DNA of 64,000 nt from Magnolia sinica (lineage: Eukaryota; Streptophyta; Magnoliopsida; Magnoliales; Magnoliaceae). Below, piece by piece: positions 11,614 to 64,000 of the stretch. The notes beneath the pieces were generated by a model. The model did no database searches. It worked only from the letters and a program-made list of their open reading frames with translations, and was not told where the DNA came from. The stretch lies in the NCBI RefSeq assembly GCF_029962835.1, contig NC_080583.1:310001-374000 (forward strand). The letters run 5' to 3'. Numbering within the stretch: position 1 is the stretch's first letter; the number at the start of each line of letters is the position of its first letter. The position numbers were made by a program, and so were the translations under genes.

Positions 11614-14600
11614 GTGCATGGAAACAACCCCTAGTTTGGCATGTGCAAATAAATGCGTGTTTTGTTGGAGGCATCATACAAATCCTGTAGGAAAGAGTTG
11701 GCAGTGGAAGATGGATGATCCTTTGGAGATAGTCAATGCTGCCATTGACCAGCATACAAGAATGATAAAACAAATGAAAGGCGTCCCAGGTGGGTTCATT
11801 GAGTGCTTATATTGAGTTTGACCTTTTTTACATTCACTCGAGCATTTCATTGGTTTTAGCAATTTTATATTATATCTTCTATTATAAGGTTCTAATGGAC
11901 TCCAATAGAGAGGCCTGGCCCCAAATAACTGGGACAAAGCGTTGATGATGATGATAATGATTTCCATTTAATAATTTAGTCCCATTAACTGGTTGAATGG
12001 GGCTTCCTGTTGCCTGCAGGAGTAAAACAGGAGCGGCTATCAGAAGGTCTCTCTCCCAGGCATTGTGCCTTGTCACTTGTTGGTGAACCAATCATGTATC
12101 CGGAGATAAATTCACTTATTGATGAACTCCACAGGAGGCGGATCTCTACTTTTCTTGTTACTAATGCCCAATTCCCTGAAAAGATTAGAATGTTGAAACC
12201 TGTCACCCAGGTTAGGGAGTTTATTTCTTTTTGTATCATCTATAAATAAATCAATTTATTGAAGTGGACTTCAGAGGTTGCATTGTGTGGGTTTTAAATT
12301 ATGAAGTATTAATTCTTTGTATAATTGCAGCTATATGTGAGTGTAGATGCTGCAACAAAGGAGAGCTTGAAGGCAATTGATAGACCACTCTTTGGGGATT
12401 TTTGGGAGCGTTTCGTTGTATGTACTCTTTCTTTTATACAATTAGTTTTTGGTGGACCTCTTTTTTCAATAGATTGATTGTAACCTTAAATTTTGAGCAT
12501 GTTTATAACCCTCTTGTTCTTCTTATGCATGGAGTCATCCTTGTTTTTAGAAATATACACAGATTTCATGGTTTTTTTTTTTTTTTAAATGAATAAAGAG
12601 TTCCATTGCATTAAAAAAAAAAGAGAACAGTTACAGACAGACAAATACAAATGATGTGATAGTGAGTGTCTCTACCCCCACAACATCCTCCTGCGAACTA
12701 ATATATGACTTTGGATCCCCAAACACAGCCCAAAAACATACTAACTAAAGACAAACACCCATTAGGGAGACAGCAATATACATGAGCAGAACATAGGCAC
12801 ATCTGTCTCTCACAAGCACACATGCAGTCTAGTTTCTAAACCAGTCTTTGATTTATTTATTTTTATTTTTTTCGAATTATCTGTTGGCCAGAGAATGAAT
12901 TTCCAATTGGGCCAATAGCATTGTCAGGTCTCTTACGAAGGAATTTCAAGGACAGTGTATCACTGTGCTCAATCGAAGCTTTCTTTGCTGTGTGGCATGG
13001 AGGTGGGGTGGGTAACATCAGAAAGGCTCTGTGGAAAATGGCGTTGTTGGCTGGCTTGTGGTTTATATGGAGAGAGCGAAATAACTGCTGCTTTAGGAGT
13101 AGAAGCGGGCGAGTCCCGGAAGTGCTTAATAGGGCAAAATCAAGTGTAATGGAATGGGCACCAACTTCCAATGTAATAGCTGATAGCTGTTAGTTTTCTC
13201 TTTCATGGTCTGATTTGCAATTCTTTTTAGGCTTTTCCCTACTAATCAATAAACTAATTGCCTTTTAAAAAAGTCGGATTGCAACCAGTGTTCGAATTAT
13301 CTCCGATATTATCGAAATATCTCCGATATTATCTTTATCTCCAGCTCAGTGATACCGATGACAGCGCTGGTAGTATAAGAAAGTTCAGGTATTAGCAATG
13401 TATCGCTAAGTATCGCCAACGTATCAATATCACTAATGTAATCACCAATATTTTCAACTATGTAAATTCTAGGTGTCGCTTGTATTGCCAATGCATCAAT
13501 ATTGCCAATGTATCGCCAATATTTTCGACTATGTAAATTCTAGGTAATGCTTGTATCATAAGTGTATCGACGATATTTCAATAATATTGCCAACGTATTG
13601 ATATCATCAAAATTGTTTATTAGAAAACAATTTATTTCATTTTTTTTTTCATGGCCATATGGTTGTATGTAGTGTTCAATTTGTCATTGATAATATTGAT
13701 AATATCTTGATATTATCGATATCGCAACATGCGCGATATTGAGACCACAATCTTTCGTTTCCCTTCCAATTGTTAATGATTTCTTGGTGAAATATCATGT
13801 GTTGTTGATATTTTACGATATCGATGGATGTTTGGATGGAAGGTTGGATGGTTAAATAGGTCGGATGTGATGGTTGGACTGATTTCTTATAACAGCACAC
13901 TTTCAAGGCCCCATTAAATGGAAACTTGTTATATATGCATTCTTCTTCTTCTTCTTCTTCTTCTTCTTTTTTTTTTTTTTTTTTTTAAAAAAAATTTAAT
14001 TTTCTAAATATGCAAATATGTACATTTTAACATCTCCTGAAGTTTCGCTGAAAATTCCACCGTTTTTCCCATCTTTCGCCGCATTTCCAGTTATCGGCGA
14101 TATCGATATTGTTTCCGTATCCCTGGCCAGCAAAACTTGTAGTGATGCTGATACTTCGAACACTGATTGCAGCAAAATAAATAAAATGGATGAATATCAG
14201 TTATCTACTTCATCACTCATCAGTTATCAATGGAAACTCATGAAGAAAGAAAAGAAAGAAACAATGAGTCGACTTATTTGAAAATTCTTAATGGATATTT
14301 AATGGATATCTTTATAAAAAAAATTCTTAATGGATATAATACTCGTTGGTAATAGCATCTGCAGTTCGTAATGTCTCCAATATGTTGCTCCTTTTTGTCT
14401 ATCTCAAGTGCATGACTTGTTAACCTTCAAGCTGATTACTGACATGTATTGCAAAAATGTTAATAGGATTCACTGAAGGCTCTCCGTGAGAAAGAACAGC
14501 GGACTGTTTACCGTTTAACTTTGGTTAAAGGATGGAATGCTGAAGATATTGATTCATACTTGAACTTGCTTGGCATTGGAAAACCTGATTTAATTGAAAT

Positions 14601-15188
14601 CAAGGGTGTTACCTACTGTGGCTCGTAAGTTGTTGTTGTTATTATTATTATTATTATCATCATCTGACCTTGGTGCTTGCTTTCCTGAAATCTCCCCGTT
14701 CAGTTCATTACTCAAAATATGCTGTTTGTTTTTGCAGGTCTGCCACTTCGAAGCTGACGATGGAGAATGTCCCTTGGCACTCTGATGTAAAAGCCTTCTC
14801 CGAGGCTTTGGCTCTTAAGACCAATGGGGAGTATCAAGTTGCTTGTGAGCATGTACACTCCTGTTGCGTCCTTCTGGCAAAAGCTGACAAGTTCAAAATC
14901 AATGGCCAATGGTTCACATGGATAGACTACGAAAAGTTCCATGACCTGGTAATATCCCCTCTCCCCTTGGTCATTTGAATCTTCTCTGGACCAAGCTAAT
15001 GACTTCCATGACAAACTTACCTTACTATGGGAATGCAGGTGGCTTCTGGAAAGCCATTCAACAGTGTAGACTACATGGCTGCAACGCCTTCATGGGCCGT
15101 ATATGGTGCAGATGAAGGTGGGTTTGATCCGGATCAGTCTCGCTATCGGAAGGAGAGACGCCATGGAGCAGCCAGCCTTCAGAGCTAG
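11614..15188 (+). CDS. TYW1: TYW1, wybutosine synthesis radical SAM protein, C-terminal half
   Basis: TYW1 makes the tricyclic core (imG-14) of wybutosine from N1-methylguanosine at position 37 of tRNA-Phe, using pyruvate and an iron-sulfur cluster. Six exons join in frame: 11614-11789, 12020-12210, 12331-12417, 14467-14624, 14738-14948 and 15039-15188 (TAG). All have GT-AG borders and give 323 residues. The radical SAM motif CANKCVFC (Cx3Cx2C) lies at 11642-11665, followed by WRHHTNPVG, HCALSLVGEPIMYPEI, VTNAQFP, DAATKESLKAIDRPLFGDFW, RTVYRLTLVKGWN and IEIKGVTYCGSSATSKLTM, all strongly conserved in the family. The C-terminal part has VACEHVHSCC and GGFDPDQSRYRKERR. The N-terminal FMN/flavodoxin half is not in the window. 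The ATG at 11618 is internal, because an upstream TGC completes the family's C-M-E-T-T-P. Intron 3 (2049 bp) carries a LINE piece and a hAT. Coding exons show no damage. Confidence 0.93.
11895..11970 (+). mobile_element. RTE-type LINE 3' tail in TYW1 intron
   Basis: AGAGAGGCCTGGCCCCAAAT followed by AACTGGGACAAAGCG and a run of GATGATGAT matches the usual end of plant RTE LINEs, whose tail is a short GAT-type repeat rather than poly(A). It is a severely 5'-truncated copy inside the first visible intron. Confidence 0.6.
12905..13277 (+). mobile_element. 5'-truncated L1-type LINE in TYW1 intron 3
   Basis: It encodes the last part of a plant L1 ORF2 (FFAVWHGGGVGNIRKALWK, WFIWRERNNCCF, VPEVLNRAKSSVMEW) with a stop at about 13191, then a 3' tail and A-run. 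It aligns with the tail of the LINE at 604-5840, so both belong to one family. Just upstream, near 12575-12625, T- and A-runs may mark another LINE or SINE end. Confidence 0.85.
13286..14165. mobile_element. hAT-like element in TYW1 intron 3
   Basis: The 880-bp element has perfect 11-bp inverted ends CAGTGTTCGAA and TTCGAACACTG. Flanks ATTGCAAC (13278-13285) and ATTGCAGC (14166-14173) match at 7 of 8 bases. The interior is rich in CGATATT, TATCGCC and AATATCG words, and a TTC repeat lies near 13940. No transposase is present. Confidence 0.8.
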
Positions 15189-15362
15189 GAGAACAGAGAT
15201 ATATATTAAATTCACAATGTCTGGTGAGCCCAACCAAACTTTCTACTTGAGCCGAGAGATGTTGGTTAAAATTCGCCATCCCGGTTTTTCTTTTTAACCC
15301 TTCTTTATATTGAGTTCTCATCATATTGTAATGCTTTTTTTCTTTTTTTTGGTAGAATTTTG

Positions 15363-15413
<51 letters not shown>

Positions 15414-16340: not shown

Positions 16341-16380
<40 letters not shown>

Positions 16381-16850
16381 GCACATGGTCTTTGGGTTAG
16401 AGAACAGTTGCTCTTTCTTTCTCTATGATGCGTATGGTCTTTGGCGTTAGAGAGCAGTTGATGGCATGGCTTTTTTAACCCTTCAAAGCTACAATCAATC
16501 TCTGTCCTTGAGCATTGTTATGGAAGTGGGCCGTCTTATTTCTCTCCTAATCAGAGTTTTTATCAATGTATTAAAAGTGATGGCCTGTGGGACCCCTTAT
16601 TTCAGCAGCCAATGGAATGATAATTTTTATTAGGATTAATATATCACTCATTTTAAAGTATTTGATGATGATTTTGCTTCTCATAATCAAGCAATTTTCT
16701 TTTTTAATGGTTGCTTCCCAGAAGACCATATGCTAATAGGTGTAAGGTTAAGATCTTTTCAGGCCCAAGGACCGGTTCCTTTTTCTCTTCTCTTTTCTTC
16801 CAGGCTGGCCTGATAATCAGGTCCGTGCAAAAACAGTAGGGCAGCGTTCA
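15189..16850. other. TYW1 3' flank: microsatellites and MITE-like DNA, no gene
   Basis: A (TA)n tract at 15368-15410 follows the TYW1 stop closely and may limit the 3' UTR. A (TC)n tract lies at 16345-16378. Between them, 15660-15880 has TGTGGGCCACAT and GTGGCCCACC words of the MITE families. The 137-residue open frame at 15665-16078 overlaps these repeats and is not considered a gene. Confidence 0.6.
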
Positions 16851-17532: not shown

Positions 17533-18160
17533 GGATTGCTTGTGACCCATCAGTGCCCAGGGCTGTGTGGGGTCCACATAAGATGTATGTGACAAATCCA
17601 CTCCGTCCATCTGTTTTGAAAGATAAGAACGGGACAGTGGGAAGGGAAACGTCCACCGTTGGAATCTTCCTGGAGCTGATGATGATGTTTACATGCCATT
17701 CAAAACACTCATGGGTTATTACCACTCAGATAAACTGTAGGCATAAATATCGTCATCATACAAAACTTCTGTAACCCCATACATTTTTTTTTTTTTTTTA
17801 CACACGCACACACACCCCCACACACTCACGCCACACGCACACACACCCCACACACGCACGCCGTGGGATTTCACCACCGTGGGTACTCGAACCCTTGACC
17901 CGGTGTTGAAACTCCAGGGAGTCTACCACCCGAGTAAGAGTAAGGACCCAATAACCCCCGTACATTCAATCCCCACTGTTTCGTGTGGTATAGTTGCACA
18001 TGAGTTTTGGATCTGCCTTAATATATATATATTAAAATCCTGTCCTATCTTGATCTTGCAAAACAGATGGACGGAGTGGAGTTGTCACTGACATCTCTGT
18101 GGGTCCCACATAGCCACATCGTTAGGAATATATATGTGCCCGGGGTCACAGCTCGTGTTG
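17533..18160. mobile_element. Mutator-like MITE with a SINE inside
   Basis: TTGTGACCCATCAGTGCCCA followed by TGTGTGGGGTCCACAT near 17534-17580 faces GTGGGTCCCACATAGCCACA and GCCCGGGGTCACAG near 18102-18150, an imperfect inverted pair. The inside has MITE words, and SINE copy 17786-17951 is inserted in it. Exact termini are uncertain. Confidence 0.45.
17786..17951 (-). mobile_element. SINE family 2, reverse copy
   Basis: Read on the minus strand: A-box region CTCGGGTGGTAGACTC, B-box GGTTCGAGTACCCAC, a GTGTGTGTG-rich tail and A-run. Imperfect flanks TAACCCCATACATT (17772-17785) and TAACCCCCGTACATT (17952-17966) look like the target duplication. Confidence 0.75.
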
Positions 18161-19580: not shown

Positions 19581-19584
<4 letters not shown>

Positions 19585-19754: not shown

Positions 19755-20087
19755 TTAGGTGCTCTTACGAGGTTGGCTTTTTCTCCTTGTACTGCTTTTC
19801 CGGAGTTCTTCCTTTGGCTTTTCTTCTCCTACTTCCTCTTTCTCCTTCACAGCAGCATCAGAAGCAGCAGCTGACGATTCTACTCCTTTTTGCTTCTCCT
19901 CCCTGCTGCTGCTGCTGCTGCTTTTCTTTTTCTTATTGGAATCCTCTTGTTCACTTTCTTCTTGGGTTTCAGTCTTCTCAACAACAATTTTCCGCGGTCG
20001 GCCTCGTTTCCTTGGGGGCTGTGATTGCTCACCGCTTGCTTCTGCCGATTCTTTCCATCTTCTCTTCTTCATCTTTTTCTTACCCAT
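19755..20087 (-). CDS. Small AT-hook, lysine-rich nuclear protein
   Basis: One exon encodes 110 residues. The first true ATG is at 20085-20087 (MGKKKMKKRRWKES). The longer open frame to 20108 starts with TTG and is not used here. The N-terminus is a basic cluster like a nuclear localisation signal. A canonical AT-hook, RKRGRPRKI, lies around residues 26-34 and would bind the minor groove of AT-rich DNA. A Glu/Gln-rich acidic stretch, a run of six serines from an AGC-type repeat, an Ala-rich segment and a basic C-terminus (RRKSQPRKST) follow. No other domain is visible. Its place between TYW1 and the At1g75180-like gene suggests it is the counterpart of Arabidopsis At1g75190, an unknown protein; that match is from memory of gene order only. 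Its opposite-strand frames are shadows. Confidence 0.75.
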   Translation of the reverse strand: MGKKKMKKRRWKESAEASGEQSQPPRKRGRPRKIVVEKTETQEESEQEDSNKKKKSSSSSSREEKQKGVESSAAASDAAVKEKEEVGEEKPKEELRKSSTRRKSQPRKST

Positions 20088-20173: not shown

Positions 20174-20224
<51 letters not shown>

Positions 20225-20305: not shown

Positions 20306-20350
<45 letters not shown>

Positions 20351-24579: not shown

Positions 24580-24729
24580 GCACCTGATCCATAGCTCAAG
24601 TGGTAGACTGAGTGAAAGATACCTCTTTTCAACACTGAAGTCTTGGTAACGATTTTCCAGTATGGGTGGCTAACAATGAGGTGTGAACCGACGATGGGTG
24701 CACTAACAAGCTAACCAAAAAAAAATACA
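24580..24729 (+). mobile_element. SINE family 1
   Basis: A tRNA-derived head has an A-box (TAGCTCAAGTGG) and a diverged B-box (GGTAACGATTTTCC), then a TAACAAGCTAACC end and A-run. Perfect 17-bp duplications AAGTAACCAGAGTATCA flank it (24563-24579 and 24730-24746). The right flank is itself repeated once more, imperfectly, near 24763. Confidence 0.9.
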
Positions 24730-27770: not shown

Positions 27771-28109
27771 GGTCGAAAACATTAGCAGACACGTAGACAC
27801 GTGTTTTGAATTCAGACATATGTGTTCAATAGTGCAGTAATCTAGACCATTCATCTGTTGAGTCCCCACTGTGGATGCAGAACACCCCAAAAATCTCAAT
27901 TAAAAAAAAAACAAAAACTTATTCTTCACTTTCACATACAACCCTTCTTTCCTGCCCAAGCGTCACATGTGTAGGCCATCAAGATTGATTGCGTAGCATG
28001 GAAATAGACCAATCAGCCCAATGCCTCATCTGACTACTGATTTTGACATTGTGCCCTTACCCATGACTGAATCAGCCTGGTTTCAGCACCAGCTGAACTT
28101 CAAGGTGGG

Positions 28110-28247
28110 TCCTTACTCTTGCTCGGGTGGTAGACTCTCAGGAGGTTCAACTCCCGGTCAAGGGTTCGAGTACCCATAGGTGGTGAAATTCCACTAGCGT
28201 GATTGTGTGGGGTGTGTGTGTGAAAAAAAAAAAAAAAAAAAAAAAGC
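28110..28247 (+). mobile_element. SINE family 2
   Basis: An A-box region GCTCGGGTGGTAGACTC and B-box GGGTTCGAGTACCC are followed by a GTGTGTGTG tail and A-run. Perfect 13-bp duplications ACTTCAAGGTGGG flank it (28097-28109 and 28248-28260). Confidence 0.9.
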
Positions 28248-33550: not shown

Positions 33551-34220
33551 TGTTGGGTTTTTTCAAAATAGAAGAAAAGATATTTTATTTTTGGGAAAAG
33601 AATGGTTGTGGTTTTGGTAATTGTTGGTGCGAATGGTGATGCCTATTGGTGAATGGAGCATCTTTTGAATTTGAAATGGAAGGATGCCATTGTTGAAAAG
33701 ACACCACCATTAATGAAAAGACACCATGGAAGAAGATGTCTTTTCATGAAAAGGGCCTTAAGCAACTCTTATAATTTTATATAAACCCATCTTTGAGTCA
33801 ATCCGAATTCATAATTCCAACAATCTCCTCTCCATCTTCTTCTTCTTCTTCACTATTTTCGTTTTTGGAAGGTTTTTTTGAAAAGATACAGTTTTTAGGC
33901 GCTAAACTGTAAATAATTTTCAGGCAATAAATTACAAACAGTTTTTAGGGGGTAAATTATAACAGTATAGAAGTCAGGGTTGTACGCTGTAAAAGTGTGT
34001 TCGGGGTGTGGTTTTTCGGTTTTGAAGGCTGAAACCCACATTTCTCCGGTCTTGGAGAAGAGACTTATTATATCTTGGAGGCGGATTTGTTGTAACCCTT
34101 TTGCAAATTAGTTTAATCACCATTAAGGTGCGAATATCGCCTTAAAGATAGCAACATCGTAACGCGCCTTAAGCGTATCTTTAAGTGATTCATTTTCTAT
34201 TTTCTGTCTCAAATATAACA
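33551..34220 (+). repeat. Left LTR of the copia element
   Basis: 670 bp, beginning TGTTGGGTTTTTTC and ending CTCAAATATAACA. It contains a TATATAAACC promoter-like word near 33780. The usual initiator-Met primer site is not obvious just after it. Confidence 0.9.
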
Positions 34221-37200
34221 ATTTTAAGGTGATCTTATGGCTTCTTCTATGCGTCATCCTGACTTTGTTCGAATTACGCCATTCAACGGCTCAAATTTTC
34301 TTTTATGGCAATCGAGGATCCATTTCTTCATCACATCACTTAAGTTGGATCATGTGCTCACTCAAGATCCTCCTTCACCACCATCTGACAATGATACATT
34401 AGAACAAATTCAAAAGAGATAAAGTTGAGAGCGTAACGACTACCTATGTAAAGGTCATATCTTCAACGCTATTTCTGATTCGTTATATGCTGTTTACCGT
34501 CAAAAGAAAACTGCTAAGGATTTATAGCAGGCGTTGCTCACTAAATATACATCAGAGGACGAAGGCAACAAAAAATTCCTTATAAGTCAGTTTTTAGAAT
34601 TCAAAATGTTAGATGAAAAACTTGTCCTTGATCAAGTATATAAGTTACTGGTCATCATTCAACAAATTATTGCCGATGACACTAATCTCGACGAATCTTT
34701 CTAAGTATCCACCATTATTGATAAACTTTCACCTAAATGGAAGGAGACTAGAAAATTATTGAAACAGAAAAAAGAGAAAATGTCCTTTGAGGACCTCCTA
34801 ATGTTTCTTTGAATAGAAGAAGAATCTAGGGTCCGTGACAAAAATGAAGAACAATAGGAGGCCCTAAGTAATGCTAATATAGTTGAGAATAGTGTGAATC
34901 GGGAATTAGAGAAGCCACCTTTCAAGAAAGATGATAGGCTTAAATCTAATAACCAAGGGTTCAAAAAGAACACATACAAGAAGGGTCCATTATTCTTTTG
35001 TAAAATCCCTGGTCACTTTAAGAAAGACTGCCGAAAATACAAGAAAAGAAACGACAAGTCAATATGACGGAAGACATGAATCTGACAGATGTCGTCTCTG
35101 AAGTTCATATGGTGAATGATGATGTTAAATAGTGGGTAGATTCTGGCGCTACCAGATATGTTTGTAGAAATTACAACATGTTCAATTCCTACGAATTAGT
35201 GGGGGATAATCAAGAACTATTTATGGGGAATGCCTCCACATGCAAGGTTATAGGAAAATGGAAGGTACGTCTTAATCTAACTTCCGTAGAAGTCCTTACT
35301 CTGAACAATGTGCTGTATGTACCGGATATTAGGAAGAATCTTATATCAACTAGTCTACTGACTAAGTTTGGATTCAGACTCCTATTTGAATCCTATAAAT
35401 TGATTGTGTCTAAAAATGGAGTATATGTAGGGAAGGGCTATGTATCCAATAAAATGTTCAAATTGAACCTTATAAATGAAAATTCTTCTTCCGTTTATAT
35501 GCTTGATTCACATGATGTTTAACATACTAGATTAGAACATATTAGTTATCGTAAAATGGATAATATGTCTAATCTTAATCTAATTCATAAGTATACAAAA
35601 CCTAATAACAAATGTAGTATTTGTGTACAATCTAAAATAACTAGAAAACTATTTCCAAAGGTGGAAAGAGAATCACAACTCCTAAACGTAGTTCATAGTG
35701 ACATATGTAAAATGAGTGGTTTAATAACAAGAGGGGGAAAGAAGTACTTCATAACCTTTATAGATGATTTTTTTCGTTATACCTTAGTATACCTATTGAA
35801 GAATAAAGATGAGACACTACAAAAAATGAAGATATATAAGGCAGAGGTTGAGAACCAATTAGACCGAAATATTAAAATTCTAAGGTCGGACAGGGGAGAA
35901 GAATATTTATCTTTATAATTCTTGGAGTTTTGCAAAACTTATGGTATAATTCACCAAATTACAGCTCCCTATTCACCCTAACAAAATGGAATAACAGAAC
36001 GGAAAAACAGGTCTTTCATAGACATGGTAAACTCTATACTCAATAATGTAGGTTTAAGTTCAAGATTTTGGTGAGAAGCCCTATTGACTGCCTGTCATAT
36101 CTTTAATAGGATACCTCGCTCTAAGACTTGTAAGACTCCATATGAACTATGGAAGAATATGATTTCTAACATCTCATACTTTAAGGTATGGGGTTGTAGA
36201 GTCTTAGTTAGGCTTACTGATCCTAAAAGGCCCAAGATAGGGTTGAGATTTCTTGAGTGTATTTTCATAGGATATTCACAAAATATCAAGGCTTATAGGT
36301 TTCTAGTTGTAGAGTCTAATCATACAATCCCGATAAACACTATAATAGAATCTAGAGATACGGAGTTTTATGAAAAATCATTCTCTTCTATAACTAGAAA
36401 AGAGACAAGACCTCAAGATCCTAGTACAACCAATAGTTCTCAAATACCTGATCAAGATATCAGAAGTCTCGATAAATAGGACATAGAACCTAGAAGGACC
36501 AAGAGGTTCAGAAAAGGTACATCTTTCAGACCCGACTTCTACCTTCCGCTAATAGAAGTAGATAAAGATAACATAACAAAGGAAACTATGTTGGTTTGTA
36601 ACATAGAAAATGATCCAATAACAATAGATGATTCCCTTAAATATGAAGATGCTTCTTTTTGAAAGGAAGCTATAAACGATGAAATGGATTCTATATTGTA
36701 AAATGGAATATGAAAACTTGTGGATCTGCCTCCAAGATAAAAACCAATAAGCTGTAAATGGACTTTCAAAGGTAAATTAAGACCAGATGGAATTATAAAA
36801 AAGTTTAAGGCCATATTAGTGGTTAGATGATTTACACAAAAAAAATATTGATTTTTTCGATACTTATGCTCCAGTAGCAAGGATATCAATTATCAGAGTT
36901 TTAGTTGCTCTAACATTCATTCATAAGTTAGAAATCTATCAGATGAATGTGAATACAACTTTTTTAAGATGGTGACATCGATGAAGAGGTTTATATGGAA
37001 CAACCAGAAGGTTTTATAATTTCACGACATGAAAATAAAGTGTGTAAATTAATTAAGTCGTTATATGGACTTAAACAAGCACCTAAGCAATGACATAAAA
37101 AATTTGATAAAGTAGTCACCTCATATGACTTTAAGATTAATGAATCTTATAAATGTGTATATTCAAAATTATCTGATAATAAAGGAGTAATTATATGTCT

Positions 37201-38695
37201 GTATGTAGATGATATGTTAATCTTTAGTACATGTTTGGAAATAATAAATAACATTAAAAGATACTTATCATCTAATTTTGACATGAAAGATATAGGTGAA
37301 GCAAATGTGATTTTAGCTATCAAGCTATTAAGAAACAATGATGGTATAACTCTATCTCAATCACATTATATTAAAAAGATACTTAAAAAGTTTCATCACT
37401 ATGATAAGAACCCAGTTTCTACTCCTTTTTTTTTATTCTAATATCAAGTTAATTAAAAATGAATGTCGTAATGTATCTCAGTTAGAGTATTCCAAAGTGA
37501 TTGACAGTCTTATGTATGCCATGATTTTTACTCGACCTGATATTACTTTTGTAGTAGGTAAATTGAGTAAGTTTACAAGTAATCAAAGTTTAGATCATTG
37601 GAATATTGTTTCTAGAGTATTCAGATACTTGAGAAAAACTATTAACTATGGTTTACTTTTTTCTTGTTACCTTGGCGTACTTGAAGGGTATAGTGATGTA
37701 AGATGAATCACTGATTCTAATGAATTCAAGTCTACCAGTGGATGAATTTTTACACTTAAAGGAGTTGTCATTTCTTGGAGATCCAAGAAACAAACTTGCA
37801 ATCTCACTCTACCATGAAATCTGAATTCATAGCTTTGGCAGCTAGTAGTAAAGAGGCAAAATAGTTAAGAAACCTATTATTAGAAATACCATTATTGGTA
37901 AGGCCTTTACCACCAGTCTCTATCTACTGTGATAGTGAAGCGACACTATCAAAGACATATAACAAGACTTATAATGAAAAATTCAGACATATCAGTCTAA
38001 GGTACAGTTTTGTGTGACAACTACTTAGTGACAGTATTATAACAATACAATATGTACGATCTATCCAGAATCTAGCGGACCCATTCACCAAGGGACTGGT
38101 AAGGGATGTTGTTAGTAGAACATCAAGAGAAATGAGACTTAAGTCAATTTCAAAGACACTGGATGAGGAAAACTCAACCTAAGTTAATATGTTCAATGGG
38201 CAAAGTACCTCATAGGAAGTGGTTGAAGCAGCACTGTATATTTTCTATCTATCTCATTCTTAGATATATGTATAGTGTTGGGTACTTGTAATGATAAAAA
38301 GGAAGATAAGCTGTTGCTCTTAATAAGTTCTTTCAAGGGTGCTATAGTTACAGGGGTATTCATAAGAACTCACCTATATGAGTATTGGAAGTGGGGCTGC
38401 TTCCTGATGTTCGAGAGTTTTTGGCTACTCTCATGAACTCATGAATCCAGGACAGAGCATAAGGTTGTTAATGTACTATAATTTTAGAACACATAACAAT
38501 TGAAATATATGTGTGTGTAACATGTCTGATTGTGTCATATAGAATACTTAGTTCAAGATCATAGTCAATAAGGATTCTGATTCAACTTTGATTTATTTAC
38601 ACTAAGTGAAGGTTCAAGTCCATAAGACACCTTCTCCTATGCACATATTTTCCTTACATACCCTGACCTTTGTATTTTGAAAAATAGTGGGAGAT

Positions 38696-39360
38696 TGTTG
38701 GGTTTTTTCAAAATAGAAGAAAGATATTTTATTTTTTGGAAAAGAATGGTTGTAGTTTTGGTGATTGTTGGTGTGAATGGTGATGCCTTTTGGTAAAGGG
38801 AGCATCTTTTGAATTTGAAATGGAGGGATGCCATTGTTGGAAAGTCACCACCATTGATGAAAAGACACTATGGAAGAAGATGTCTTTTCATGAAAAGGGC
38901 CTTAAGCATCTCTTGTGATTCTATGTAAACCTATCTTTGGGTTAATCCGAATTCACAATTCCAACAATCTCCTCTCCATCTTCTTCTTCTTCTTCTTCTT
39001 CTTCACCATTTTCATTTTTGGAAAGATACAATTTTCAAACGCTAAACTGTAACTGATTTTCAAGCAGTAAATTACAAACAGTTTTCAGGGGATAAATTAT
39101 AATAGCATAGAAGTTAGGGTTGTATGCTGTAAAAGTGCGTTCGGGGTGCGGTTTTTCAGTTTTGAAGGCTGAAACCCACATTTCTCCGGTCTTGAAGAAG
39201 AGGCTTATTGTATCCTAGAGGCGAATTTGTTGTAACCCTCTTGCAAATTGGTTTAATCATTAGTAGGGTGCGAATATCACCTTAAAGATAGTGACATCAT
39301 AATGCACATTAACCCTATCTTTAAGTGATTCATTTTCTATTTTTCATCTCAAATATAACA
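38696..39360 (+). repeat. Right LTR of the copia element
   Basis: 665 bp with the same ends as the left LTR, preceded by the purine tract AATAGTGGGAGA. Confidence 0.9.
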
Positions 39361-43665: not shown

Positions 43666-45085
43666 AAAAAGAGGCAAAAATATATTTATTTCCTATATAT
43701 GTTTAATTTAAATCAATCAAGCCAACACATGTTATCCATCATACAAATATACATTTAAGATATTTTTATAACCCTACGATGTTTCATACCTAGGTAGACT
43801 GTGTTTTACATCATAGTAGATTGGAATAAATTAGAAAAAAAGAAAGTGATTGCCATTGCACTGGGGAATGCTAATGCGGACCCAACTGTCTTTCTTCTTT
43901 TCAAACCATAGAATGAGAATGACTCCCAGGAATATAATTTAAAAGTGCCCTAAGCGTACACTCATAAGCTAAGAATACTTGTTTAAGATTAGAATCACTC
44001 ATCGGTTAAACCCCACTTGGTAGATTACATAGCTCAAAATTGAGGCTGATGGGATCATTAGGTCGGCAATCCATTATAAAGATTCAATTATACGCCACCC
44101 AAAAAAATAAGAATTCGCGTGTGGCCCACCTGATGATTTGAACGAAATTGATATTTTGTACATCTAAAAGAATTGATGGGGCCGGGTGCACCTGTTGGAA
44201 GAGGTGGATGGGTGTTGGGGCCATGATGTTGGACTCTTAATTACCTTATAGGTTGGTCCACTCATCAAAAAGAAAAAGAAAAAGAAGAAGAAGAAGAAGA
44301 AAAGAGCACTTTCATCAAGTGGGCTGTCGTTAGTGTGTATACGGTGTCCGATCACTAGAACACCAACTTTGCGAAGCGAATTAGAAACATACGCCCAGAT
44401 CCATAGCTCAAGCTGGCAGACTGAGTGGAGATACCTCATTTCAACACTTGAGGTCTTGGTATCGATCCCTAGCGGGGGTGGCAAACATGGAGTGTGTGTA
44501 CTAACAAGCTAACCCAAAAAAATAATAATAATTCTATTTTTTTTTTTTAAAAAAGAAGAATTAGAAACATACAATGTATCACATCACATTACTTTTCACA
44601 GTAATGACCTGAACAAACTCTTAACATATGTTTTTTAAAAAAGAATGATGAAATAGTCCACGCCTCTAATAACTCTGCCCATGATGGATGCCCATGTAAC
44701 AAAGAACATAGATTAACCAACTCACATTAATAGTGGTACAAAGGTGGCCGAATCCTATGCAAGAGTAAAACCCTAAAAGAGAGATAACAAGATTGTTTTG
44801 GAATATACAACCCTGTGTATGCCATCTCGTTCTAATTAATATAGGCCTACCCATGAGATTTCTAGTCTTTTTAGTCATGAGATTTTGCCTTGATATTGGG
44901 CAAGGATCTTTTATGCTAGCTAGTCTCTTAGGTGCCTTATTTAAAGCCCAAATCGTGCAACCAACATGGGCTAAAACTATAGTATTCATAGGCTGTGATC
45001 CACTCATCAAAGGGGCCGCATATATATCAAATGCAAGCCAACCTACCTACATGGTGGACCACATGAAACATTATTTGAATATTGC
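43470..45085. repeat. Segmental tandem duplication, unit B, with an insertion
   Basis: Direct second copy of 42375-43409, offset about 1.1 kb. A roughly 650-bp insertion (44325-44972) splits it; landmarks resume at TAAAACTATAGTATTCATAGG. SINE copy 44393-44557 lies within that insertion. A (TA)n tract at 43633-43660 is unique to this unit. Confidence 0.85.
44393..44557 (+). mobile_element. SINE family 1
   Basis: A-box TAGCTCAAGCTGG, B-box GGTATCGATCCC, then CTAACAAGCTAACCC and an A/T-rich tail. Perfect 15-bp duplications GAATTAGAAACATAC flank it (44378-44392 and 44558-44572). Confidence 0.92.
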
Positions 45086-47170: not shown

Positions 47171-47606
47171 GCTATTGATAATAATTGATCAATCTTCATG
47201 GCTAAAATAATACGCTATTTAAAGATATGATAAGGTCATGAAGAAAAATAAAGGACATTTACATAATTAAAGTGAAGTCATCCATTTGATGGCGGCTCTT
47301 CACTATTGTTAGAGACCTATAATAGTTTATGACCTTTTTCTTTTATCAAAAAAAAAAAAAAGCCGTTGTTCATCTCCTCCCATGTTACACTCATGTATGG
47401 TCCACGCCCCCAAAATTAAGGGGTGCATCGTGAATGGAGAGTGTGTCTGAAACACATTAATAAAGTAATCCTAACCATCCATTTTATGGTTATTGAATGG
47501 ATGGTTAAAATAAAACTAGTGAGTCGTGCAAAATCAGATGGTAACTTTCATGTTCTCAGAGTAATTTTAGGCTATGGTCTATTATACTTAAGGTTAGTTA
47601 TTTGAA

Positions 47607-47780
47607 CACCCAGATCCATAGCTCAACTGACAGACTGAGTGGAGATACCTCGTTTCAACACTTGAGGTCTTGGTATCGATCCCTAGCGGGGGTGGCTAAC
47701 ATGGAGTGTGTGTACTGACATGGGTGTGTACTAACAAGCTAACCCCCGCCCCCCCTTTAAAAAAAAAGAAAAAAAAAGAG
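47607..47780 (+). mobile_element. SINE family 1
   Basis: A-box TAGCTCAACTGACAG, B-box GGTATCGATCCC, a duplicated GTGTGTACTGACA/GTGTGTACTAACA end, then a C-run and A-run. Perfect 15-bp duplications GGTTAGTTATTTGAA flank it (47592-47606 and 47781-47795). Confidence 0.92.
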
Positions 47781-52568: not shown

Positions 52569-55500
52569 ATGGAATGCTGTTACGAGTCCGCGACTGCAGA
52601 TAGTGTTGCTGATCCGTCTAGAAAGATCATCAATCACTCTACTTATCAGCCCAAGTTGTCGTCTTGGTTTGATCTGAGGGTTTTCTATGTGAGAGTCAGC
52701 AATTTTGAGGTCGACCAATCGACCCCAGAGTATCTCACTCTCAAACATATCCCACTGAGCCCTGATACTCTCCTTGATGTGAACAGTGGGCGAAGTAGCA
52801 TTTACTCTGACAGTGTTTCCTCACTTCTACGAAGGGATAGGGTCGATAAGAAAGCTGAAGAAGTCACGTTTGTAAGCACAGATAGTATAAAGATGACTGG
52901 GAGTGTGAAATTTGAGGTATATGATAGAGATGATCTGTTGCTCTCTGGAGTTCTAGAGATGTGCAGTAACGGTTTCACCGGAGAATCGAAGAACCATAGC
53001 AAAAGGTGGAGCATGAATTTCCAGCCATTGAAGACTTCGGGGGCAGGCTTCTTGAAGGCAAAACAATACATGAGTCCTGAATTGCCTTTGCCAACAGTGG
53101 ATGTCTATGTCGCCGGTAGTTTCTCCGGTACTCCTATCATCTTGACGAAGACAATTCAGTTGAGTTTTCAGAAGAAACATGTGAGGAAGGGAATGTTGGA
53201 TTCAATCCCAGAGTATGAAACAACCGAAAGCAAGACCGACGTACCTTCTGACCTTGATTTGCAGGCAATTGATCCCAAACTTCTTATTGTTCTTCTTGTT
53301 TTATCATATCTGAAAGTTAATATATAATCTTCAACCTGAGAATTTGATTTGCATCATCTAGTCTTGATTTTGTATAAGCAGGGCGCATCATTCAGCAATC
53401 CAGACTGTTCATCTGATGGGTCCCACAGTGGATGGGCTGTGGCAAGAAGTTTCTACCATGGAATAACTATAGCCCCATGGATCAGTTACCTGCAAATAGA
53501 GAGGAAATATCGAAACGGGTCCCCGCTCAGCTGAAAAATAAAAGGCCAAAGATTTGGATTGCGATGATCTTCCAATTTGGGAGATTTTCATGGGATGGTC
53601 CATCCACAATGGTGCCCACCATATCAATGGCTGGATCACTGAACCAAATGATCATAAATTTCCTCTTTATCTGTGGTAATCATGCTGCATTCTGTTATAG
53701 GTATCTTTTATCTTGGTTTTGCATTTTGGAATGAATATCTCAAGTGTATTGCATTTGCTTTATGGTTTACAAGATGTTTCCTTGCATGTGGACATGTTTG
53801 TTTTATCATACAACCCATTTCTTGCTGTGGCACCCCATGATTAATGGGTAAGGGTATGGGCATGGCACATATTCCAAAGCTATGAATTGAATATTAATAT
53901 TATCTGTGAATTGGGTCCTATGTTATACCAGAACCTGACATATCCATCTGTCTTGGGGCTTTGCCTTTTTGGTTTTAACCTCCTCATACAGACAACCCAC
54001 CTTATCTAGATTTGAGTTGGGAAAAAGAAATCACACTACCCATCTTGAATCTTTAATTTACTGTGTTCCAGAACAAAGAAAGAAGGAAAAAATAGTAAAT
54101 CTGTTGATGGGTGTTTGAAAATTTTAATCTATCTTCTCAACGACTAATTCTACTTTCTCTAGATGTAACTCATGACAGGCTGTAGCATTTTTTTATTTTT
54201 ATTTTCCCTCCTCGATGTTCAGGCTTTTAGATTTACAGTATAAAGACAAGAACAGTTGGCCATATGATGCTCCTCTCCAAACTGCTAAAGTCAGGTGATA
54301 CTGTTATAGAGATGGGACTGAACCTGAAATGATAATAACTTTTGTATCCTTCCAAAAAGAAGAAAAAAAAAGATAATAAAGTTTGTACAATAACTTGCGC
54401 AGCCAAATAAATTAGTGACCATTTATCTATACATATATACATTTATTGTTATTCGATTTAAAAGCATGTAATGCACTATAAATTGATAAAACGTAAAATA
54501 GGAGATTGTGCTAAGAGTACTTCAGGGAACTCCATAATATCTAAGCCTGAGCTTTATAAAATGATACCTTAGAATGCAGCTATACCAATGTCTAACCTCC
54601 ATCATATTTTCATGTTCTGCAAAATTTATAAATCTTTTCATTAGGTTTGTTTTCTTATTTTCATTCCTTCTTTTGGTAAGCTGGGATGGAACACATTACT
54701 TCAATGTTGCAGCACTTGGGCCATGACAACTAGGCACAGGGCTCAGCTCTCGATTTGTCATCGATACTTTTCTTTATGTGCTCAGTTCTGTTTAGTCCCA
54801 TTTTTGCTTTCTCCTACATCGCATGTCTACCAGATTCATGTTGCAGCATCAGTAGTGTTTTTATATATTTTAGAAATTTGAGGATATTTGTACTTCTATT
54901 TTGGAAATTTGGTGGTATTTCAGCCATCTTCATATTCTCATTCCTTCTTTGGGTAAGCTGGGTTGGAACACATTACTTCAATGTTGCAGTAATTGGGCCA
55001 CAACAACTAGGCAAGAGGCTCAGCTCTTGATTTGGTGTCGATTCTTCTTTTGATATGCTCAGTTCTGTTTAGTCCCCAGCTTTTGCTTTCTCCCATGTCG
55101 CATGTCTGCCAGATGCATGTTGCGGCATCAATAATGTTTTGATATATTTTAGAAATTTGAGGATATTCATACTTATATTGTGGAAAATTGGCGGTATTTC
55201 AGTTGTTTCATGAGAAACAATTGCACTTTGGTTGTTAGCCCCATCTAATTCTTTTAATATGAATTCGATGTGAGTGTGGCTTGAAGTAGTGCTCATTGGC
55301 AGGAGGCAATGGACTGAAATTAGTCGTGAAAAGGTTTATTGATGCCTTCTTTTAGTAAGTCCAGAGATTTGAATTAAGTGAACAGTAGATGCACGCATCC
55401 TGCATCAAATCCAGCCTTGAAAATTTGAGCACATGATGCTGATGGATATACACACAAAAAGTCAATAAGTTCTCAACCATTTCTTCAACCCATTGGCAAT

Positions 55501-56037
55501 TGCTCCTCCTTTTCCACCACCTGTTTCCATATCATTTTTATTGTTTTCATCCTAATGTCAAAAGTTGAGATTGAACTGATTGACATGTATGCATATTCAA
55601 GAAAATGAGAATTTGAAAAACTGGTCCAAAGTATGCTCTTATCCATGTAATGGAATATTTTATTCTTTTTTTTTTCTTTTGAGAATAAGTCCTGCATTAT
55701 CCACCAAAAAGAAAACGGAATTAGTCATACATTTTTATATTCTCCTCTTTGATCCTTAACTTGCCTTGTAGGACTAAATAACTCGTCTGTTTCTTCCATT
55801 TATTTTCAGTTATTGGAATTCAGGGAACAAGAGAGTGATGACGATGATTACGACAGTCTCTACTCGAGGGCAAAATACATAGAGAGTGAGGATGGGGAAC
55901 TCTCATGGTTTAACGCGGGCGTGAGAGTAGGTGTTGGGATCAGTCTCGGAATCTGCGTGGGCATTGGAATAGGGGTCGGTTTGCTTGTCAGCACTTATCA
56001 AGCAACCACTAGAAACTTTAAAAGACGTCTCGTGTAA
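52569..56037 (+). CDS. At1g01500/At1g75180-family membrane-tailed protein
   Basis: Two exons, 52569-53264 and 55810-56037, give 307 residues. From memory, Arabidopsis relatives are labelled 'Erythronate-4-phosphate dehydrogenase family', but I see no NAD-binding dehydrogenase motif, so that name should not be used for function. Conserved words are SSWFDLRVFYVRVSNFEVD, PEYLTLKHIPLSPDTLLDVN, LLRRDRVDKKAEEVTFVSTD, VKFEVYDRDDLLLSG, GSFSGTPIILTKTIQLSF and DSIPEYETTE. Exon 2 has a Glu/Asp patch, then DGELSWFNAGVRVGVGISLG and a glycine-rich hydrophobic segment (about residues 273-295) like a single membrane span, ending in the basic tail TTRNFKRRLV. Function is unknown. Exon 1 has no canonical GT donor in the expected place; CAG|GCAATT at 53262-53270 joins in phase to TTA at 55810, so a GC-AG intron is inferred. 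The intron is 2545 bp. Confidence 0.88.
53380..53660. repeat. MITE-like inverted repeat in the intron
   Basis: CATCATTCAGCAATCCAGAC and CTGATGGGTCCCAC near 53386-53429 face GTGCCCACCATATC and GGCTGGATCACTGAACC near 53611-53645 as an imperfect inverted pair. No target duplication was seen. Confidence 0.4.
54664..55210. repeat. 277-bp tandem duplication in the intron
   Basis: The segment starting TTCCTTCTTTTGGTAAGCTGG at 54664 recurs from 54941. Shared words include GGAACACATTACTTCAATG, GCTCAGTTCTGTTTAGTCC, GCATGTCT(A/G)CCAGAT and TTTTAGAAATTTGAGGATAT. Divergence by eye is moderate, near 10%. Confidence 0.85.
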
Positions 56038-57721
56038 AAAAAATAGAAGAAGAAGAAGAAGAAGTGATACCACAAACTAATAACCATCTCCATTGAACCC
56101 TGTTTAATTCCCCCATAAGCTAACTTGGTAGCTTTTCTCAAGATGTACCCCTTTGCAAAAATGTTACTAGAACTTTCTTTAATATAGGTGACAGTCATCT
56201 GTCGCTCATGCTTTTGAAGTTTGTTACATAAAGGCAGTAAAATTTTGTGAATGGGAGTAGTAGACCTCTTGAATGGAACAACTTCTTGACTGTTACATCA
56301 GATGCCTACAATTGAGCAAATAAGCTTCCTTTTTTTAATTGCTTAATGCTGCATCTTGGTTCAACTTGCATTTTCCAAGGGGGTCCCTACTCATGGCTCG
56401 GTGGTAGACTCGCAAGAGTTTCAACACAGAGGTCATGGGTTCAAGTGCCCATTGTGGTGTGTCTGAGTGTGAGTGAGTGAGTGTGTAATAATAAAAAAAA
56501 TAAAAAATAAAATATTAAAAAAAACCTTGCATTTTCCAATAAGCAATATTCCACTTTGAGTGAGGTAATATGGGGCAAGGATTTTCTAAATTCATTGATT
56601 TCAAACCTTGGTGTTTGTTTTTGTTGAGTTCCCAAATTAGCACCCCTGTAAATCCATAGATTTGTAGCTTGATTTTCAAACTATGTGCTTTGGGATTTGT
56701 CCAATGGGATTTGCCAGTTCCAAATCCAATTCAACTCCTGAATGTGACAAGCAATTCATATTCTCACTTCTATTGTTCCAAACAGGGCCTTGGTAATCTT
56801 TCAAAAAAAAAGAGCCCTGGTAGAATTTCCAAAAGATCTAGAAGTAGAGCTCTTTTGTTTTCAATTGGAAAGATGGAGCTCTTTCTTACCCATGCAGGAC
56901 CATTGCATAATTTGTTTAAATTCTAGTAAAATTCCAAAAATGTTGTGAACTTTTTTCTCACAGTCTGAGCCAAATGCATTGTATGTATTTAAACATAAGC
57001 CATTTTGATTGCATTTGAATTTGACAAGATTACCTTTAAGGGCGTGTCTGTGACAGCTAATAATGAGATGAAACTAAATCTCGCATTCTACAATCTAATT
57101 CATAAAATGAGAAGCATATAAGGATCATGGCAAAGCATAAAATGAGAAGCATGTAAGGATATCATAGCAAAAGGGACCATCATCTGGGAGACAGGTGCCA
57201 GCTTGGCACTCATGGAAGATCTATGCCATTTATTTGGGTTGGCTCCACCCATCAAAATGCCCTTACCTAAAAATAAGCTGGTCTGCTCAACAGGTTGACA
57301 ACCCACGTATAGTAAAATGGTTTTTTAGCAAAAAAAATCCTACAATCAAGATTCAATGTGCATATGTAGCTCACCTAATGAGCGGACTGACCTGTTTCTG
57401 TGCAATCGCGAATATTGGAGGCAAGAAATCACTCAATCCAATGGGAAACAGAAGACAAACATAGAATATGGAACAAGAATGCCGTTCCCACATTAGAAAC
57501 TAAAATGTCTTTGCTTATGACAGTCATGGAAAATGGAACCTCAGTTCCAGCTTCAATTAGTAAAATGTATTGAGATACACCCACATCAAGTTCCAAAACT
57601 AATGAATACTTCCCAAGTTGTATATGGTAGCATACAAATAACAAATTTCTATAGCTACCATAGAACAGTAATGGAACATTATAATATTAGTTTTAATAAG
57701 AAAGTTTCTTGCTCAGCTAGA
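56038..57721. other. Region between two convergent genes
   Basis: It holds the 3' UTRs of the At1g75180-like gene (+) and the SEC14-like gene (-), a SINE (56379-56525) and a 36-bp direct duplication near 57102-57175 (CATAAAATGAGAAGCAT twice). No further gene was seen. Confidence 0.55.
56379..56525 (+). mobile_element. SINE family 2
   Basis: A-box ATGGCTCGGTGGTAGAC, B-box GGGTTCAAGTGCCC, a GTGAGTGAGTGTG tail and A-rich end. Perfect 14-bp duplications CTTGCATTTTCCAA flank it (about 56365-56378 and 56526-56539). Confidence 0.9.
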
Positions 57722-60700
57722 TCATGGGGCGACAAGCACTGGCTCTGGAGCCACCTCAGCTGAATGTCCATTGCTAGTGCAGCTTGATTTATTGTCTAAG
57801 CCCCACAAACTGGCAGTTTTTATGTCATCACTGGCCATCAATTTTGAGAATTCCTCGTGATCATACTGTGATTTGTCCTTCCCGCCTAACTCAGCTGGAA
57901 GGATCTCAATGGAAAAATTCTGTCTCATCAGCTCCATACTATCTTCATTCTTCGGGTAAACAAATTTCACCTTCTGAAATGTCTTGGAGTCCAGAAAGTA
58001 TTTGACAATCTGCAAGGGCACAAAGAAGAGCAAGTCATCTGATGATGATAGGAACAGTTGTGGAGAAGGAGAGAGCTTTTCTCTTTTTTCTGGTTTAAGG
58101 TGATAAAGAAGCTGTGGTTTTTGCCAAATTAAGGAGCACAAGAAAGAAATTGATTAAAACTGCCAAAATAAGCTCTTTCTCAGAAGTAACTTTCAGAACC
58201 TGGAGCTTGACTTCAAAATAGACCTTCAATTTCCAAATTTATCTCGGTTTAGGTGAGCAAAAAATAAATAAAATTGCAAGCTTAATACAAGGCTTAGCCA
58301 TCATTGATTTGGCTGTTTTCTTTTCTTTCACGAAACCGGAGTTTGGTCTTAGCAATTGACAAATCGGCATTTTAACCAAAGTCCAACTGAGTGTGCCAGG
58401 GAGTTTGTGAACATTACTTTCGAATTCAAAGTTTGAAGCAACTGAAGAAAAACACCGGATGCTAATCGATTACAGTAAACAAAGTCCTGTTGTTTCTGCA
58501 CAAGAACAAGTCTTTTTACTTTTATGTTTCTTTTGAGTTTCAAGATCTTATTTATAAGAGGGGGAAAAAAAACAGGCTAATAAAATACTAACACAATGTT
58601 AAAAGGGTGTATGGTCGTCTTGACAAAATATTAGGTATTTTTTGCTCAATCATTCCCTATAATGGACGTCAATTTCAATTTCACAACAAAACCCAGATAC
58701 ATGCAATAGCATACGAACCTTCCAAAAAGCTTCGAATATCCTTGGAGGATTGTAAAGGAATGCTAAGGCGAGCCTCTCGGGATAGTGATTTTGCAATATA
58801 TTTACAGTTTCTCGAGTAGTCCTGATGGGCACCGAGTTAGTCAATGACCAACCAGTGAAATCTATCAACCACACCATCTGCTCTTGACCCTCGGGTAGGT
58901 TAAGAAGTCCATTCTCTATGAGATACACCAGATGTCGGAGCTGATTGTCATGTGATGATGTGTTCTACACGAAAAAACAAGGGGGAAAAAAGCACTGAAA
59001 ACACCTTCCAAAGTACCACCACAACTCTACAAACACCTTACAAGAAATATGAGCACAAACCTGCTTTCCTGGCCTCAGTATAAGAACACTTCTCCCGTGT
59101 AGATCATGAAAGTTTGCTCTATACACTTTCCCAGTTTCACCTTCATTTGCTATTTGGTGCTGAGAGAGAAAGAGTGTTAGGCTACAAATGCACATTTTAC
59201 AACTTCATATGGAATATAATATCAAACAATTTATTATGTTGCATGTAAGTTAGACTGCTCTTTAGCTTTCTTGGTCAGCTTAGACTCTAAAATCTCAGTT
59301 GCAGACATGGATAGCACAGGAAACATGGCATGCCAACGCATCTTCTACAGATGCAGATTATACCCAGTGACAAACTACTAAAAAATTAGTCCATTGAAGT
59401 GCCAAATAGAGACATTTATATCAAGATCAATATAGGGACGCCCATAAACAAAGAAGGATGTTACATGTAGACGTATATAATTGGATATGAATTTCATTAC
59501 CAAATATAACTTAATGACTATTAAGGATCCAACCCATGGCTCAGTGACAGGCGGAGTGAGTTTCAACACTGAGGTCATGCGTTCGAGTGCCCGCGTGGGG
59601 TGACCCTTGCATTATGTCATCAGTACAATTATCCAACTATTAATAATCTAATTACAGTTAAACCCCCAGAATTTTATAATCTTTTTTATACACTTGGACA
59701 GAAGTCAAAAAACAATATTCATGTAAATGATCAAAATACCCTTCTAATAAAACTTTGTTTAACCCCACCCAAATTTCCTTCAAGTTGTTTCTTTTGCGTT
59801 CTCCATTGATCACAACAGGCCACACCTGACGAATGGGTTTGATGAAATAATTACCCCCCTAGATACTTATGGTTGGCGACCCATACCATTGTTCTTTGTG
59901 ATGTGACCAACCAAAGTTATTGATCAGGTTGGTTTTTGGCTACATTTTTTTTTTTTTGGTTAGCTTGTTAGTACACCCACTGTCAGATCACACTTCACTA
60001 TTAGCCACCTCCACTAGGGAATCGATGCCAAGACCTCGGTGTTGAAACGAGGTATCTTTCACTCGGTCTACCACTTGAGCTATGCATCTGGGTTTTGGTT
60101 TTTGGCTACATGGTCACGCTTTCAGGAGCACACCTTATGGATGGAGTGGATGTCCTATAGACAATATGTTGGGCCCACAGAGCATGGATGCTTCTTAAAG
60201 TACCACCATTGGTCTGACAATGCATGGACATACGGAGGGAGTGACTTTGTGCGAAATGACCACCACATGAGAGGAACATGCATCAAATCCACCTGGTCCA
60301 TCAGATACGCTGCCACATTTTCACTGTGGGTACTGAAAATCAATCCCATCTAGGACTCAGGTAGACCACACAATAAGTAACAATGTCAAATCATGTGTAA
60401 ACCTCTAAATTCATGTCGTGTAGCCCACATGAGTGTTAGACTGTCCTTATTTTCGGAGCGTCCCTTCATCTTGGCATCAGATGAATAGATAGGATGGTGC
60501 ATATATACCACAATGGGAGTACCATATCAACCATTCACCATGGTGTAGCCCACTTCAGTATTGAATCGGCCTGATAATTGGGCCTTGGTCAAAACACATG
60601 GTGGCACACCTGATGGATGGTGTGGATCTCTTCGACATGAAATACTTCCATCCATGTCAGTGAAAGGCACGCACTGATGACTCAACAAGTCATGCAAGAG

Positions 60701-63700: not shown

Positions 63701-64000
63701 TCACATAGATGCTTCATGAGAAAAAAAGAACAGTGTTTACAAGGAAGAATTTAGCTGTGCAAAAGTCAATCACATAGATAATCATCATCATCTAAGCCTT
63801 ATTTATGCATAAGTCAATCACATAAATGTTTCATGAAAAAAGAGGTCCGTGCGTGCATGTGACTGTGTCTATGTTTAGGGGAGCTTACCCAACGGATTTC
63901 CTCAGGCTTAAATGTTGATCTCCATTCCAGTGTCTCTTCTAACATTTTCTTTGATTTATCAACATTCCAATTCCGAGCTTCCAAATATCTTCTCAAGCAA
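57722..64000 (-). CDS. SEC14-like (CRAL-TRIO) lipid-transfer protein, 5' partial
   Basis: CRAL-TRIO proteins bind and exchange lipids such as phosphatidylinositol between membranes; the ligand here is unknown. Minus-strand exons in order are 64000-63889 (cut by the window edge), 59159-59061, 58964-58719 and 58009-57722 (TGA). All have GT-AG borders and phase-0 joins, giving 247 residues. The first exon is the CRAL-TRIO N-terminal helix part ([20 protein letters not shown], then TLEWR and PEEIRW). The lipid-binding domain follows: [59 protein letters not shown] (with the hallmark HYPERL), [19 protein letters not shown] and LPAELGG. The C-terminal tail is short and unconserved. The long intron (4729 bp) holds SINE and MITE copies. 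The nearest Arabidopsis type, from memory, is At1g75170. The start codon lies beyond 64000. Confidence 0.92.
59528..59605 (+). mobile_element. SINE family 2, fragment in SEC14 intron
   Basis: CCATGGCTCAGTGACAGGC and GTCATGCGTTCGAGTGCCC match the A- and B-box parts of family 2. The tail is missing and only a weak ACTATTAA flank pair is seen. Confidence 0.6.
59945..60094 (-). mobile_element. SINE family 1, reverse copy in SEC14 intron
   Basis: On the minus strand it reads CCCAGATGCATAGCTCAAGT, A-box TAGCTCAAGTGG, B-box GGCATCGATTCCC, GGTGTACTAACAAGCTAACC and an A-run. Perfect 16-bp duplications TTGGTTTTTGGCTACA flank it (59929-59944 and 60095-60110). Confidence 0.92.
60111..61110. repeat. MITE-like fragments in the long SEC14 intron
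   Basis: Blocks with GGATGGAGTGGATGTCC, TTGGGCCCACAG, CAGGTAGACCACACAATAAG, GTGGGCCATACCACAGG and CAGGTGGGCCACAACTTG are related in wording to the other MITEs here but more diverged. Units are not resolved. Confidence 0.45.
61111..63600. other. Remaining SEC14 intron, no exon seen
   Basis: Mostly AT-rich DNA. A MITE-like end (CATGGTGGGCCCCACAGAGC) occurs near 61848. I saw no extra CRAL-TRIO exon, and the flanking exons join in frame without one. Confidence 0.55.
63640..63845. repeat. Four-copy interspersed direct repeat in SEC14 intron
   Basis: The core (A)TCA(A)TCACATAGATGCTTCATGA followed by A-run and AGA occurs near 63642, 63698, 63766 (truncated) and 63813, spaced about 50-70 bp. It ends about 45 bp from the intron's 5' donor. 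Confidence 0.7.

Follow-up and report, generated by a model that had tools for sequence, protein, structure and literature searches.

Arabidopsis Genome Initiative (AGI) codes ascend along a chromosome in steps of ten, and the consecutive numbers of At1g75170, At1g75180, At1g75190 and At1g75200 therefore identify these four loci as neighbours. According to published annotations, At1g75200 is Tyw1 (PMC2956550), also given as a flavodoxin family protein with a single-nucleotide polymorphism at chromosome 1 position 28,222,144 (PMC7788084); At1g75190 (UniProt Q9FRL0) is a hypothetical protein tabled among wholly disordered Arabidopsis proteins (PMC11817481); At1g75180 is the locus of a family named for erythronate-4-phosphate dehydrogenase; and At1g75170 is Sec14p-like (PMC5567290) and is one of 35 Arabidopsis loci listed as SEC14 accessions (PMC7674337). 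Two of these types also occur together in soybean, where Glyma14g08170, of the erythronate-4-phosphate dehydrogenase family, forms a convergent antisense pair with the Sec14p-like Glyma14g08180 (PMC3710604). The genome-wide survey of Zhao et al. (2021, PMC8190143) reports that flowering plants have kept local gene content and order in spite of polyploidy and active transposons, and the case described here is alike in its conserved local order. It concerns a run of genes in Magnolia sinica, found in a window of 64,000 nucleotides (C11:310001-374000, on contig C11 of an assembly of 1.84 Gb in 127 contigs), whose arrangement is very probably an ancestral gene order retained by descent.

Gene content and the presence of spliced genes mark the window as plant nuclear DNA. 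The order within it is TYW1 (+), an open reading frame (ORF) of 110 amino acids with an AT-hook (−), a two-exon gene referred to below as gene 3 (+), and a SEC14-type gene (−) (Table 1). The initial annotation had read a run of four genes from this DNA, and the run holds: TYW1 and SEC14 are firm identifications by profile matches, the small ORF and the two-exon gene are located between them, and both end genes extend past the window edges. Arabidopsis was compared through published locus annotations and AGI numbering, and on this footing At1g75170-At1g75200 present the same named types in the same locus order, gene 3 being a putative and the small ORF a candidate match by position. The Arabidopsis parallel proposed in the initial annotation is supported in part, at the level of named types and locus order; orthology of the genes is putative, and conservation over most of angiosperm history, as the initial annotation proposed, would be a conjecture. 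Exons below the piece-length thresholds would escape the Pfam scans of open pieces of DNA, inside the window and in the flanks. Rfam and tRNA scans of the window returned no Rfam family at the gathering threshold and no tRNA.

TYW1 is the enzyme that produces a wybutosine precursor on tRNA-Phe. The five introns between its six in-window exons are all GT-AG, and this half of the protein matches Radical_SAM (PF04055, E 2.6e-18) and Wyosine_form (PF08608, E 1.1e-22); the radical SAM motif CxxxCxxC is present as CANKCVFC in the first in-window exon. On this partial chain the TIGR03972 profile gives E 1.5e-69 and 234 bits, under its curated cut-off of 318. The N-terminal half was missed by a sequence probe of window 1-11613, and Pfam returned no flavodoxin match for two other pieces and 132 of the 158 listed from 1-11.6 and 15.2-19.7 kb; apart from the Radical_SAM exon, the sole matches were to Nodulin_late (E 0.0061) and DUF6536 (E 0.0094). 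A truncated TYW1 was ruled out, as the flavodoxin exon sits upstream of the window in contig DNA, where an intron of ~13.57 kb separates the upstream exons from the first in-window exon. The assembled model of 659 amino acids carries Flavodoxin_1, a domain expected of eukaryotic TYW1, together with Radical_SAM and Wyosine_form, and TYW1 is thus complete by domains and ordinary. Within this 13.6-kb intron, at window positions of about 990-3760 on the + strand, lie decayed pieces resembling a long interspersed nuclear element; by eye they suggest an endonuclease and a reverse transcriptase, and none of those scanned matched a Pfam family at E 0.01.

SEC14 proteins transfer phospholipids, and the fourth gene is of this SEC14-like lipid-transfer type at the family level, with matches to CRAL_TRIO (PF00650, E 9.9e-38) and CRAL_TRIO_N (E 1.8e-5). 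The solved structures that match it best by sequence are PDR16 entries. Gene 3, which faces it tail to tail, joins its two exons into a protein of 307 amino acids with a Gly/Val-rich, membrane-like C-terminal tail. No Pfam family matches it at E 0.01 and no entry of the Protein Data Bank (PDB) at E 1, and a pattern search for relatives gave 9 stretches from viral and 60 from prokaryotic contigs, none of them confirmed. By resemblance and position, gene 3 is putatively of the At1g75180 type, the plant "erythronate-4-phosphate dehydrogenase family". Since neither Pfam nor PDB offers a match, that dehydrogenase name is unsupported as a function here; gene 3 differs from erythronate-4-phosphate dehydrogenase (PdxB) in that no 2-hydroxyacid dehydrogenase domain is matched, and as the name of a plant family it looks like a misnomer, to judge from the predicted protein. 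The best model for the gene 3 intron (53265-55809) is GC-AG, with a GC rather than GT donor, and a slightly upstream donor is possible. The same intron contains a tandem duplication of ~274 bp, 86% identical, at window 54652-55202.

The arrangement of gene 3 and SEC14 matches that of Glyma14g08170 and Glyma14g08180, which are likewise adjacent, tail to tail and in the same strand arrangement. The soybean genes are independent support that these two named types are neighbours, although the pair is classed as overlapping and the stop codons here are 1.68 kb apart. A scan of this convergent interval for sigma-70 promoters and terminators was set aside as uninformative for plant DNA.

To place the run in a wider context, 100 kb was read on each side of the window and open pieces filtered for length and complexity were compared with Pfam at E 0.01: 138 from C11:250-310 kb and 132 from 374-444 kb, each of at least 72 amino acids, and a further 105 of at least 76 amino acids from C11:210-250 and 444-474 kb combined. 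On the left, the matches in C11:250-310 kb were retrotransposon domains, the TYW1 flavodoxin exon, a 5'-nucleotidase exon and four marginal families (DesK_N, SPG4, CNNM and DUF2992, E 0.0014 to 0.007). Leftward from TYW1, this 5'-nucleotidase is the first gene to be recognised, and At1g75210 is probably a 5'-nucleotidase of the haloacid dehalogenase (HAD) type; the block may perhaps hold five genes including this one. From the 5'-nucleotidase to SEC14 the recognised block spans about 132 kb or more, and past SEC14 there is no recognised match to the Arabidopsis block. On the right, C11:374-444 kb yielded retrotransposon domains, a GH17/X8 gene, a Helicase_C piece (E 8.5e-7) and Stealth_CR3 (E 7.8e-4). 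By motif, the Helicase_C piece is the stretch L023:8781-9005; it and an SNF2 exon at ~458 kb are both on the − strand, and the two are therefore taken as one SNF2 gene. The joint scan of the outermost regions, with both sides pooled, matched LRRNT_2, DBINO, RyR, Baculo_PEP_C and retrotransposon domains. Its single LRRNT_2 match marks the start of a leucine-rich-repeat receptor-type gene, possibly a fragment, at L009:5370-5891 (C11:235370-235891) on the − strand, its side being assigned by eye.

Much of the window lies between the small ORF and gene 3, in a gap of 32.5 kb into which a decayed Copia-type element of ~5.8 kb has been inserted. Five pieces from this element, which fills 33.5-39.35 kb, were scanned, and four of them gave matches to Pol_BBD, gag_pre-integrs, rve, SH3_retrovirus and RVT_2. 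Across 652 aligned columns, in an alignment that cuts the second one short, the long terminal repeats (LTRs) differ by 68 mismatches and 9 gaps; this is an identity of 88.2% and a Jukes-Cantor distance of about 0.11, and for the full pair identity is 87.2% over 679. Depending on the substitution rate assumed, the distance would correspond to an age of ~4 to 40 million years, and no date is therefore given. Elsewhere in the gap, pieces of at least 42 amino acids were filtered for complexity and scanned; the 113 from 20.1-33.5 kb gave a single marginal match (Propeptide_C1, E 0.005), and the 109 pieces from 39.35-52.5 kb matched DUF3915 (two pieces, best E 1.4e-5) and Atrophin-1 (E 9.7e-4), both of which are read as low-complexity; a SEC14 piece added to the latter scan as a positive control was recovered. 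Of the gap as a whole, only 15% resembles other parts of the window. The suggestion in the initial annotation that transposons stretched the block is thus borne out in part, by one Copia element in this gap, and is a conjecture for the remainder.

Two families of short repeats are also scattered through the window, one with four copies (24583-24716, 44391-44514, 47605-47744 and 59958-60096) and one with three (17863-17950, 28101-28194 and 56376-56459). Both have box-like stretches that presumably resemble a tRNA-derived short interspersed nuclear element. In a mixed alignment of the copies, which was poor, one copy lay in the opposite orientation.

Table 1. Positions of the features in the window and its flanks. 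Numbers without a prefix are window positions; C11 denotes contig coordinates.
Feature	Position	Strand	Basis or remark
TYW1 (tRNA 4-demethylwyosine synthase), exons 3-8 of 8	11614-15188	+	splice model, Pfam, TIGR03972
TYW1, in-window exons	11614-11789, 12020-12210, 12331-12417, 14467-14624, 14738-14948, 15039-15188 (stop)	+	
TYW1, exon 1 (flavodoxin exon)	C11:305363 (ATG) to 306253	+	contig DNA left of window
TYW1, exon 2	about C11:307929-308044	+	contig DNA left of window
Single-exon ORF of 110 amino acids, candidate At1g75190 counterpart	19755-20087	−	ORF, composition, position
Gene 3, exon 1	52569-53264	+	open frame from ATG at 52569
Gene 3, exon 2	55810-56037	+	acidic stretch and Gly/Val-rich membrane-type tail
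Convergent interval, gene 3 and SEC14 3' ends	56038-57721	.	1.68 kb between stop codons
SEC14-type gene in window	64000 to 57722	−	Pfam
SEC14, last coding exon	57722-58009	−	
SEC14, lipid-binding-domain exon	58719-58964	−	
SEC14, exon	59061-59159	−	
SEC14, exon continuing past right window edge	63889-64000	−	continuation read in adjoining contig DNA
Decayed Copia-type LTR retrotransposon	33551-39360	+	LTRs 33551-34220 and 38696-39360; domain matches
5'-nucleotidase exon (PF05761)	C11:256537-257067	−	
Further 5'-nucleotidase exons (two)	C11 near 254.6 and 241.6-241.9 kb		
GH17/X8 gene, right of SEC14	C11 about 434.6-437.6 kb		
SNF2-type chromatin remodeller, DDM1-like by eye	L023:8781-9005 and L025:3933-4355 (C11 about 442.8-458.4 kb)	−	

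The small ORF is a candidate member of the run. It is rich in K, E, S and R, with 33 Lys/Arg and 21 Asp/Glu and an isoelectric point of about 10.5, and a charge-hydropathy plot puts it strongly on the disordered side. It resembles At1g75190 in this disordered character and in its position beside TYW1, and is a candidate counterpart of it. That the ORF is instead no gene, or no counterpart of At1g75190, and merely a purine-rich stretch open by chance is rather unlikely but deserves real consideration. By length alone this putative gene does not exceed chance: ATG ORFs of 110 amino acids or more number 10 in the window, compared with 0-6 when 20 first-order Markov sequences were examined. GA repeats stand immediately upstream, and the single AT-hook core RKRGRPRK scores 16.1 bits with Pfam AT_hook, below the cut-off of 17.4. 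Among the 81 ATG ORFs of at least 60 amino acids it ranks first by codon score, which partly reflects its K/E content, and only twelfth by synonymous-codon score, while its other reading frames reach high scores as well. Under leave-one-gene-out the other three genes score near zero, so that the codon model cannot decide the case. What speaks for a gene is that the ORF occupies the place expected of At1g75190 and is wholly disordered by composition, as is reported for At1g75190, together with the leading codon rank of a model that is uninformative on the firm genes. Were the ORF not a gene, the block would consist of TYW1, gene 3, SEC14 and the 5'-nucleotidase, which is compatible with an ancestral order.

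If the order was retained by descent, the plant from which this species, Arabidopsis and soybean all descend would already have had TYW1, the small gene, the dehydrogenase-named gene and SEC14 side by side, flanked at TYW1 by a 5'-nucleotidase gene, and rearrangements would not have split these neighbours since. Long introns together with insertions such as the Copia element would account for the wide spacing here; the small ORF, if a gene, would encode a disordered AT-hook protein; and no joint function of the block genes would be required. We infer orthology, descent and timing of the block from the correspondence of named types and order, and several observations weigh against doing so. The Arabidopsis parallel is one of names and locus numbers; gene 3 matches no Pfam family and its At1g75180-type assignment is putative; the small ORF is a candidate gene; and the recognised genes right of SEC14 (GH17/X8, SNF2) differ from the neighbours of At1g75170. 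In the gene surroundings that the sources give, the dehydrogenase-named rapeseed gene BnaA09G0695200ZS has no SEC14 neighbour on the one side covered (PMC13408256), and the dehydrogenase-named soybean gene Glyma.12G043400 has none on either side (PMC11013609). As for the literature, of 10 papers listed as naming any of the loci At1g75170-At1g75200 none was listed with two of them, and the search found none pairing a TYW1-type name with dehydrogenase-family or SEC14 names; for four related loci it found one paper naming two, both SEC14. As each of the two families comprises several members, gene 3 and the SEC14 gene could derive from sister copies in a paralogous block, with only partial orthology, or could stand beside TYW1 by coincidence. 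This is improbable: under pure coincidence, the chance of both types lying within three genes of TYW1 is 5e-6 to 1.3e-5, or about 1e-5 on simple assumptions (35 SEC14 loci, an assumed 3-8 dehydrogenase-named members and a total of ~27,400 genes), and the soybean pair and the 5'-nucleotidase, with its probable Arabidopsis counterpart, add further matches.

Selection might alternatively hold the block together, through shared stress regulation and through mutual control of gene 3 and SEC14 by overlapping antisense 3' ends. The soybean pair is one of five with induced tags for both members, among 66 convergent pairs, in a SuperSAGE study of rust infection (PMC3710604); At1g75170, which has G-box motifs, is at a higher level in plants that overexpress GBF3 (PMC5567290); At1g75190 is listed as upregulated under all stress conditions (PMC11817481); and a moss transcript matched to At1g75180 belongs to a published drought-responsive gene set. 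Such responses are, however, widespread among plant genes and the evidence comes from four separate studies, while knock-outs of At1g75200 are reported to have no significant effect on growth (PMC7788084). With stop codons 1.68 kb apart, an overlap of gene 3 and SEC14 would also need long 3' untranslated regions. Maintenance by selection is accordingly given little credence, and the stronger form, in which all five genes (5'-nucleotidase, TYW1, AT-hook protein, gene 3 and SEC14) were selected for joint stress regulation and gene 3/SEC14 form a conserved antisense pair, slightly less still.

Retention of the ancestral order by descent makes this a case of ordinary plant microsynteny, a known kind of gene-order sharing and no new type of system; because conserved local order is well known in flowering plants, the finding is of modest interest. 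The shared order would nonetheless give positional evidence for an At1g75190 counterpart in this plant, one perhaps missed by sequence search alone. The convergent pair of gene 3 and SEC14, published as antisense in soybean, is an arrangement that can be checked in many plants.

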